Part shown: positions 35,084-37,496 of the stretch, piece by piece
Numbering within the stretch: the stretch's first letter is position 1
How the letters are laid out: every line of letters starts with the position of its first letter
Assembly: GCA_028696815.1 (NCBI GenBank)
Contig: JAQVGG010000003.1
Span: 1-64,000 of the forward strand
DNA length: 64,000 nt
DNA from: Candidatus Altimarinota bacterium
Lineage (GTDB): Bacteria > Patescibacteriota > Gracilibacteria > BD1-5 > UBA6164
Direction: 5' to 3'
Made by a program: the position numbers and the translations under genes
The notes under the pieces: generated by a model
What the model saw: only the letters and a program-made list of their open reading frames with translations
Told to the model about the DNA's origin: nothing
The model's database searches: none

Positions 35084-35329
35084 TTATTTGCAAGTTTTTC
35101 TTGGAGATAACCAATCAAATCATTCTCATTCTAAATTGTCTTGTCTCATTGATTTCCTATCCTGATTTTTTAATCAATTATTTGGAGCATTATCTCTCAA
35201 ATATTTATTTAATTCAAGTAATCTATCTATATCAATTTGTACTCCATTAATTAACTCAACTACAACTTGCTTTAAATATTCTGGCATATCAACTGGATAT
35301 TTTGACCAATCAATTTTTTCAGTACTCAT
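35084..35329 (-). CDS. Hypothetical protein, 81 aa
   Basis: Begins MSTEKIDWSKYPVDMPEYLK. Mostly helical and charged, with a tail of Arg, Lys and Gly (KNQDRKSMRQDNLEGEGF). Four TGA-Gly. It follows the structured RNA on the same strand but after its terminator. Function unknown. Confidence 0.7.
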
Positions 35330-35407: not shown

Positions 35408-35437
35408 AAAACCCCCGGCGCGTACGCCGGGGGTTTT
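35408..35437 (-). terminator. GC-rich terminator of the structured RNA
   Basis: Perfect stem AAAACCCCCGGCG/CGCCGGGGGTTTT, the strongest hairpin in the window. Confidence 0.95.
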
Positions 35438-35875
35438 ATTTTTTGCGCTTCAACACCCTTTGGACTTTCACCGTGTTGGTTGATAGCGCGAGGACACTTA
35501 TCAGCATCCTCAATTTTTAAGTTATAACCCACTACTGGGAGTCACGAGCCGGACTAAAGCTTTAAGGGGGAGGAAACAGGGAGCGCGAACTGAAGCGGCA
35601 GGCATCGTCACAGTGTGTGACCTTTCGCAAATGACCCGCGGTATATTCCCATCCCCTACAAGGAAACCCAGCAAGCCTCTAAAGCAAGGCGACAGCTTGG
35701 ACACGATTTTGACCGTATCCTTAAGGTACCCTTTCTCCACATTGTTAAAGAAACAAAAGTGTAAAAGAAAAGTCCTCCTCTAATGTTAATTTTTAAAGAA
35801 AAAACAGCTTGAAGAAGTTTTTCCTCCTCTAACGTCGTTAGCCAAAGTGGTCACTTGACCCTTCCTAGGGTCGTT
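35408..35875 (-). ncRNA. Large GC-rich structured RNA, family not identified
   Basis: About 470 nt near 50% GC in a genome of about 27%. Read on the minus strand: promoter TTGACA-16 nt-TATAAA, a 5' part with hairpin GACCCTAGGAAGGGTC and the repeat GCTAACGAC, two copies of TTAGAGGAGGA, hairpin GTCACACACTGTGAC, a 3' hairpin around AACAC/GTGTT, and a GC-rich terminator. No long frame is convincing. RNase P RNA or tmRNA would be expected somewhere in the genome, but I could not find their conserved cores, so I leave the family open. Confidence 0.75.
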
Positions 35876-35879
35876 AGCT

Positions 35880-35907
35880 TTTATATCTATATTGATTATA
35901 ATGTCAA
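35880..35907 (-). promoter_or_regulatory. Consensus sigma70-type promoter
   Basis: On the minus strand TTGACA (35907-35902), 16-base spacer, TATAAA (35885-35880). Predicted start near 35874 opens the structured RNA. Confidence 0.8.
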
Positions 35908-36122
35908 GAAAAAAAATAAGTTTTTTTTAATTTTTTGACTTTTTCGCTATCTTCTCTAAAATTCATACACCATAAATATGGGCTAACCCGTAGTTAGTTA
36001 AGTAAAGACGCAAATAATTTTAATTATTTGTTGACTTTAGTTATGCTGGTCTATTTTTGATACAAAATTTTATATTTTGTGTTTCAAAAAAGAATCAGTA
36101 TTTAATAAATAATATTTATAAA
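35908..36122. other. Intergenic with a long imperfect inverted repeat
   Basis: No gene. An imperfect hairpin spans about 35995-36050 around CAAATAATTTTAATTATTTG. Probably the divergent leader of the U32 gene. Confidence 0.45.
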
Positions 36123-37496
36123 ATGAAAAAGAAGTTAGAATTACTTATGCCAGCTTGAGATATGGAAAAACTTAAGTTCGCATATGCTTATTGAGCTGAT
36201 GCTTGTTACGTTTGAGCTCCTATGTTTTCTCTACGTGCTAGAACAAATGCTTTTACTATGGAGTCTCTAGAAGAAGCTGTAAAGTATGCTCATGGATTAG
36301 GAAAAAAGATATATTTCACAGCAAATATATACGCTCATAATATGAAGATAAAACCATTTTTAGCTCAATTTAAAAAAATGGTTGAGATGTGACCAGATGC
36401 ATTTATTATGGCTGATCCTGGACTTATACACATAGTTAGAAGAGAGTTTCCAGATGTAGAGGTGCATTTATCAGTACAAGCAAACAATACTAACTGGGCG
36501 CAAGCTGAGTTTTGGCAAACACTAGGAATCAAAAGAATCATACTAAGTAGAGAAATCTCTATAAAAGAGATGAAAGAGATACATGAACATGTACCAGATA
36601 TGGAACTTGAAGCTTTTGTTCATGGTGCAATCTGTATGGCATACTCAGGTAGATGTCTTATATCAAACTATTTATCAAATAGAGATCCAAATCAATGAAC
36701 TTGTGCTCACTCTTGCAGATGGGAGTATAAAGTATTTAAAGATGATAAAACGGAAGCAGAGTTAGAAACTCTAACAGGTAGACCTGAAGAATACCAAGAA
36801 CTTACAGGTAATTTTTATCTTGACGAAAAAGAAAGACCTGGAGAATTGATGGAAATAGATGAAGATGAATACGGTACTTACTTGATGAACTCTAGAGACT
36901 TGATGGCTATTGATTATATAAAAGAACTAGCTGACGCTTGAATCATAAGTTTCAAGGTAGAATGAAGAAATAAAACTGTAAACTATATAGCAAGTGTATG
37001 AATTGCTTATAGAAAAGCACTTGACGCTATAGAAGCTTGAATTGATTATGATTCTAAAGAGTTAGCTGAAGAACTGTTTTCTATAGCAAATAGAGGTTAT
37101 ATACCAGGATTTTTAGCTGGAAATCCTGGAGCTAACGCTCAATTTTACGAAAGAAATGGAAGTTATGGAACAAAAGCTTTCTTGGGTATACTTAGAGAGT
37201 ATGACTCGAGTGAAAAAGTAGTAAGAGTAGAAGTAAAAAACAGATTTGAGCTTTGAGATAGTATCGAGATAATTACACCTAATGGTATAAAGAAATCTAA
37301 AATAGAGAAAATATATAAAACATGACTAAATCACTGAGTACATAAGGCAAATACAACATTTACAGAATACAGTTACAAGTTTGATAAATCAAAATCTGAA
37401 GAAGTAGAGAGCGCTCACTGATGAGGTTATGAAGTATGGATAAATATGTCAGAAAATCCTTGAGATTTTAGTTTGATAAGAAAAGATATAGATTAA
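36123..37496 (+). CDS. U32-family peptidase/hydroxylase
   Basis: 457 aa. ELLMPAGDMEKLKFAYAYGADACYVG at the N-terminus and the U32 signature EAFVHGAICMAYSGRCLISNY near residue 165, then CAHSCRWEY, supplying the four cysteines of the Fe-S site in RlhA/TrhP-type enzymes. These act on RNA hydroxylation or, in older reports, collagen. C-terminal beta domain ends KIEKIYKTGLNHGVHKA. Single gene with an upstream leader. Confidence 0.93.

Follow-up and report, generated by a model that had tools for sequence, protein, structure and literature searches.

A candidate lineage-restricted structured RNA with a phage-type T-loop-like hairpin in a Gracilibacterium chromosome

The RNA gene and its parts

The window (the whole 64-kb stretch of DNA analysed) belongs to a genome that reads UGA as glycine (code 25), and the genes neighbouring the locus described here are open only under this code. 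Among named organisms, Candidatus Gracilibacteria are the closest to it. At the locus, an RNA gene occupies the minus strand from about 35875 to 35408. Its divergent right neighbour, at 36057-37496, belongs to the U32 family and has TrhP, the tRNA uridine-34 hydroxylase, as its closest match, scoring 507.5 bits with the TrhP equivalog model, just below the cut-off of 534. To the left, on the same strand as the RNA gene, lie an ORFan of 81 amino acids, which begins 78 nt past the terminator, and then ndk. The features are collected in Table 1.

A previous, sequence-only reading of the stretch 35408-35907 had described about 470 nt of high GC content with a consensus promoter and the strongest terminator of the window, and had left the strand unstated. 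Its coordinates and anatomy proved right: the exact limits of the stretch are formed by the -35 box and the terminator stem of a minus-strand gene. The GC content is 0.47 for the gene and 0.50 for its core, compared with 0.26 for the window; in 200-nt windows, it peaks within the gene at 0.535, the maximum of the whole window (mean 0.259, sd 0.053). The gene is also more GC-rich than the RNase P (0.41) and tmRNA (0.35) genes of the same genome. The promoter is TTGACA-16-TATAAA; when both strands of the 64 kb are scanned, 14 sites, this one included, match at 11 or more of the 12 positions. Transcription would start at about 35873. The terminator stem (35437-35408; 13 bp, 9 of them GC) is the best-scoring GC-rich hairpin in the window. 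It looks bidirectional because its U-tract on the plus strand (UUUUAUUUUUU) is better than that on the minus strand (UUUU).

A coding reading of 35408-35875 was rejected, as the ORFs inside the gene show alien codon use (GC3 of 0.56, versus 0.12-0.20 in the neighbouring genes) and have no Pfam match. Folding is strongly strand-specific. With the terminator removed, the minus strand reaches -142.7 kcal/mol (z -3.43; none of 100 shuffles as good), and the plus strand has a z of +0.20, which rules it out as the RNA strand; with the terminator included, the values of z are -4.55 and -1.81, respectively. Since this contrast is independent of base composition, no other single line of evidence speaks as strongly for an RNA gene. 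That the gene is real can be stated with high confidence, and it is predicted to be expressed, with transcription running leftward from its own promoter to the strong terminator.

The fold in Table 1 is predicted from one sequence, the RNA being known in a single copy. In the 5' AU-rich region, the two GAGGAGG copies (35829-35823 and 35780-35774) each lie within a UUAGAGGAGGA element, and neither is followed by a start codon at normal spacing.

Table 1. Features of the RNA locus in the window and loci of the type III phage RNAs
Feature	Position	Strand	Basis or remark
Structured non-coding RNA, ~470 nt	35408..35875	-	GC island, strand-specific folding z, lack of coding
-35 hexamer TTGACA	35902..35907	-	sequence and whole-window promoter scan
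-10 hexamer TATAAA	35880..35885	-	16-nt spacer from -35; sequence and whole-window scan
5' hairpin GACCCU-AGGA-AGGGUC	35857..35872	-	pair probability 0.95
5' AU-rich region with two GAGGAGG copies (Shine-Dalgarno-like)	35774..35830	-	sequence
Hairpin GGAUACGGU/AUCGUGUCC	35699..35720	-	pair probability 0.97
Long imperfect central arm	35548..35672	-	pair probabilities 0.60-0.97
Hairpin GAGGAUGCU-GAUA-AGUGUCCUC	35490..35511	-	pair probability 1.00
3' domain, outer stem GCGCU/AGCGC enclosing T-loop-like hairpin	35445..35489	-	pair probabilities 0.86-0.93
T-loop-like hairpin matched by phage-trained model R2	35453..35483	-	31.3 bits, E 4.1e-7
Terminator, probably bidirectional	35408..35437	-	hairpin scoring across the window
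81-aa ORFan (code 25)	35084..35329	-	gained in the same interval as the RNA
Type III phage RNAs	L128:2200-2290; L149, L150, L151, L152, L153, L154, L155 (phages KP13-26, mogra, PM2, My1, RaK2, DU_PP_V, PL1 and Hallingskeid)

Known RNA families, relatives and the site of gain

Searched against Rfam, the RNA gene scores below the gathering threshold of every family. Among the 39 sub-threshold matches found at E up to 10, which are mostly terminators, GOLLD, ROOL and OLE do not occur. The sequence-only reading had recognized no motif of RNase P, tmRNA, SRP or 6S RNA, and the covariance models bear this out with no match to any of the four; the search with RF00010, RF00023 and relatives that it had recommended likewise returned no family. 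RF00010 (RNase P RNA) is matched elsewhere, at C1:14664 (160 bits). With regard to tmRNA, neither a match to RF00023 nor a tRNA-like domain or a tag was found at the gene, and the genome has two tmRNA genes of its own, on C28 and C5. These two genes (G000:C28:22060-22518 and G000:C5:117-562) differ from each other within one bin, and one of them could stem from the 6% contamination. Resemblances to hammerhead, pistol, twister-sister and group I RNAs were also considered and dropped, having no Rfam support. The independence of the RNA from known families is thus well supported.

RF00169 (bacterial SRP RNA) and RF00013 (6S RNA) match nothing anywhere in this genome, a gap that a divergent housekeeping RNA might fill, SRP RNA being one that is not otherwise found. 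However, RF00169, which detected SRP RNA in 13 of 14 control genomes, has no convincing match in the order, of which 30 genomes were searched; because this gap is lineage-wide and the present RNA occurs in one genome only, the RNA does not account for the group's missing SRP RNA. The GGAA/AGCAG motif of domain IV is absent from it as well. Given that RNase P RNA and tmRNA are encoded elsewhere in the genome and that the RNA is absent from all relatives searched, a housekeeping identity is very improbable. Of the two options offered by the sequence-only reading, a very divergent housekeeping RNA or a lineage-specific one, it is the second that is supported.

The absence from relatives was found by several routes. 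A blastn search of 60 relatives gave only short AT-rich chance matches, and one of 48 family genomes gave no homologue. R1, a covariance model built on the single sequence of the central arm, detected no relative in 145 class genomes; among 380 phylum genomes, the pattern of the 17-nt motif, which represents the motif only, is confined to the present one; and a synteny search at the corresponding loci of relatives found no such RNA. The whole RNA gave nothing of note in phage and plasmid collections, a 25-nt match in a Persicobacter plasmid being dismissed as chance since it lies inside an open frame. Within the genomes searched, the RNA thus appears lineage-restricted.

In three close relatives (L074, L078 and L092), the U32 and ndk genes are direct divergent neighbours separated by 273, 187 and 132 bp, whereas in the window the gap is 1123 bp and is occupied by the RNA gene and the ORFan. 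In other relatives the interval is likewise expanded, with different content, and it is therefore a site of gain. In L077 (1510-2861) and L080 (2517-4001), the interval measures 1.35-1.5 kb and has a GC content of just 17-20%. The RNA is probably a recent arrival, gained together with the ORFan, and was probably acquired horizontally.

The ORFan has no homologue in the 60 relatives and no Pfam or NCBIfam match. Its position directly past the terminator on the same strand, its gain in the same interval and the short minus-strand U-tract raise the question of whether read-through occurs, with the RNA acting in cis as a large attenuator or sensor of this ORF. Such a leader is rather unlikely: no evident anti-terminator complementary to CCCCCGGCG is present, 470 nt would be very long for a leader, and the ORF belongs to no significant known family. 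The order of promoter, RNA, terminator and small gene would also suit a two-gene module resembling a type III toxin-antitoxin system with an RNA antitoxin, as would the pair of UUAGAGGAGGA elements in the 5' AU-rich region and the weak PADLOC match of the ORFan to PDC-M36A (E 0.0024, 14.7 bits). On inspection, however, these elements are just two imperfect copies and not a true tandem repeat, and a single-sequence structure model of the 81-residue protein gives only two helices (pLDDT 70) and a C-terminal part without confident structure. A two-helix protein of this size is unlike the ToxN-type endoribonucleases. With neither a tandem-repeat RNA antitoxin nor a ToxN-type protein found at the locus, a module of this kind is quite improbable.

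The 3' hairpin and RNAs of phage tRNA islands

The 3' hairpin carries AACACGGUGAAAGUCCAAA, a T-loop-like motif also present in RNAs from phage tRNA islands that are unannotated and supported by covariation. The 17-mer ACACGGTGAAAGTCCAA from the 3' domain matches five viral contigs (L122-L126), always in one non-coding motif, which lies beside phage tRNA or tmRNA genes in L122 and L123 and inside a tRNA-like gene in L124 and L126. Of two further oligomers from the same RNA, a 17-mer gave one unrelated match and an 18-mer gave none. Model R2, a model of the P4 hairpin trained on four phage sequences only, recognizes the window hairpin (Table 1), its sole other match having an E of 2.7, and none of the coding chance matches selected by these 17 letters exceeds 23.4 bits. 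By this model, the window RNA has the hairpin with loop AACACGGUGNAAGUCCAAA, one pair of the R2 stem being a mismatch. Within the hairpin, the conserved CAACACGGUGAAAGUCCAAA (35478-35459) is an exact 20-nt match to a conserved phage loop. On inspection, the enclosing GCGCU/AGCGC stem resembles the CGCU outer stem of the type I phage RNAs.

This match bears on whether the RNA is a decayed or stray fragment, such as a functionless remnant of an intron or mobile element. A recent gain, a single copy and an alien base composition are what such a fragment would show; however, the promoter and terminator are intact, folding is strongly biased to one strand, and the phage loop is preserved exactly over 20 nt, so that a fragment of this kind is unlikely.

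The trail from the hairpin led to a covariation-supported, unannotated RNA class located beside tRNAs in T4-like, T5-like and jumbo phages. These RNAs are about 75-130 nt in length and carry GGUUAAU...ACC(C)GA, and none of their types is present in Rfam. Type I copies were found in Acinetobacter phage ME3, Klebsiella phage KP13-26, L123 and L136, type II copies in L124-L126, and type III copies in mogra, PM2, My1, DU_PP_V, PL1, RaK2, Hallingskeid and KP13-26; type I (ME3, KP13-26) and type III copies are unannotated in their phage records.

Type III is a pseudoknot RNA of about 95 nt with the core GAAUAAGGGUUAAURGUA...GAGUAACCCCGAAA, mostly adjoining tRNA genes. In its helices P1 and P2, five of five pairs have changes on both sides, and 96% of cells are paired, compared with 70% after shuffling and no more than 46% after sliding; P3 (GGGUUA/UAACCC) is invariant. 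The P4 hairpin stem of type I covaries, as do the type II stems GAUAAC/GUUAUC, GGUAAC/GUUACC and GACAAC/GUUGUC (the last in L125). In L124 (808-943) and L126 (11804-11939, minus strand), the core replaces the anticodon arm in a tRNA-Leu-like gene. Type II has an order resembling that of a circularly permuted type III.

The similarity between the window RNA and the phage RNAs is limited to about 31 nt. The phage set was gathered by scanning with the window's own 17-mer, and only the L128, L136 and ME3 variants are independent of the exact string. With regard to the GGUUAAU...ACCGA element, only GGGUUAUAAC...CAACC is present upstream of the window hairpin, which is not a convincing copy, and the phage core patterns I and II/III have no match in the window. 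The motif is absent from T4 RNAs C and D on inspection, and its strings were not found in any relevant paper. Kinship of the window RNA with the phage class is possible, if doubtful. Equally tentative is the proposal that the window RNA and phage types I-III form one undescribed superfamily, in which a T-loop/pseudoknot core occurs in different strand orders and has spread via phage tRNA islands, once into a Gracilibacterium chromosome.

Proposed mode of action and comparison with known systems

The reading that we favour, with a probability of roughly 0.6, is that of a large structured RNA, free-standing, lineage-restricted and probably horizontally gained, which has a T-loop domain of phage type and would serve as a scaffold in trans. 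A promoter, a terminator, the lack of a reading frame and a compact predicted fold are explained most economically by such a scaffold. T-loops are modules that dock with another loop, and, judged from known T-loop motifs, the loop UGAAAGU with its GG/CC closure appears to have this form. Briefly, the RNA would act as a compact scaffold that presents, in its 3' domain, the kind of T-loop-like hairpin seen in the small RNAs of phage tRNA islands. This T-loop may dock in the body of the RNA itself or in a tRNA-like or ribosome-like partner, by analogy with large ornate phage-borne RNAs. The tRNA-island setting of the phage RNAs may point to a theme of tRNAs or ribosomes. To our knowledge, almost no non-coding RNAs have been characterised in bacteria of the candidate phyla radiation, and the window RNA is a clear gene without a family in such a bacterium.

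Compared with the phage tRNA-island RNAs, the window RNA has in common with types I and II a hairpin bearing the AACACGGUGNAAGUCCAAA loop, which in type I is closed by a CGCU-type outer stem; it differs in adding about 390 nt of other structure and in having no convincing copy of GGUUAAU...ACC(C)GA. Theta ribozymes (PMC10879173) are likewise tRNA-associated in phages, but they are of an HDV-like type which, going by its description, does not match this core. RNase P RNA of type A and tmRNA are similar in size and GC-rich structure, and differ in that their models find no match at the locus and that both are present elsewhere in the genome. OLE RNA, of about 600 nt, is another large structured RNA, to which the window RNA shows no Rfam match.

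ROOL and GOLLD are large phage-borne RNAs, often near tRNA islands, which assemble into homo-oligomeric cages made of RNA alone and to which no function has been assigned (PMC12286853). The window RNA is similar to them in being large, highly structured and free-standing, and GOLLD combines a conserved 3' region with a variable 5' region (PMC12286853). However, the window RNA has no Rfam match to either family even at an E of 10, is shorter (about 470 nt), and is flanked by housekeeping genes, with neither prophage genes nor a tRNA adjoining. By the Rfam test it is not a member of these families, and at most it may work as they do.
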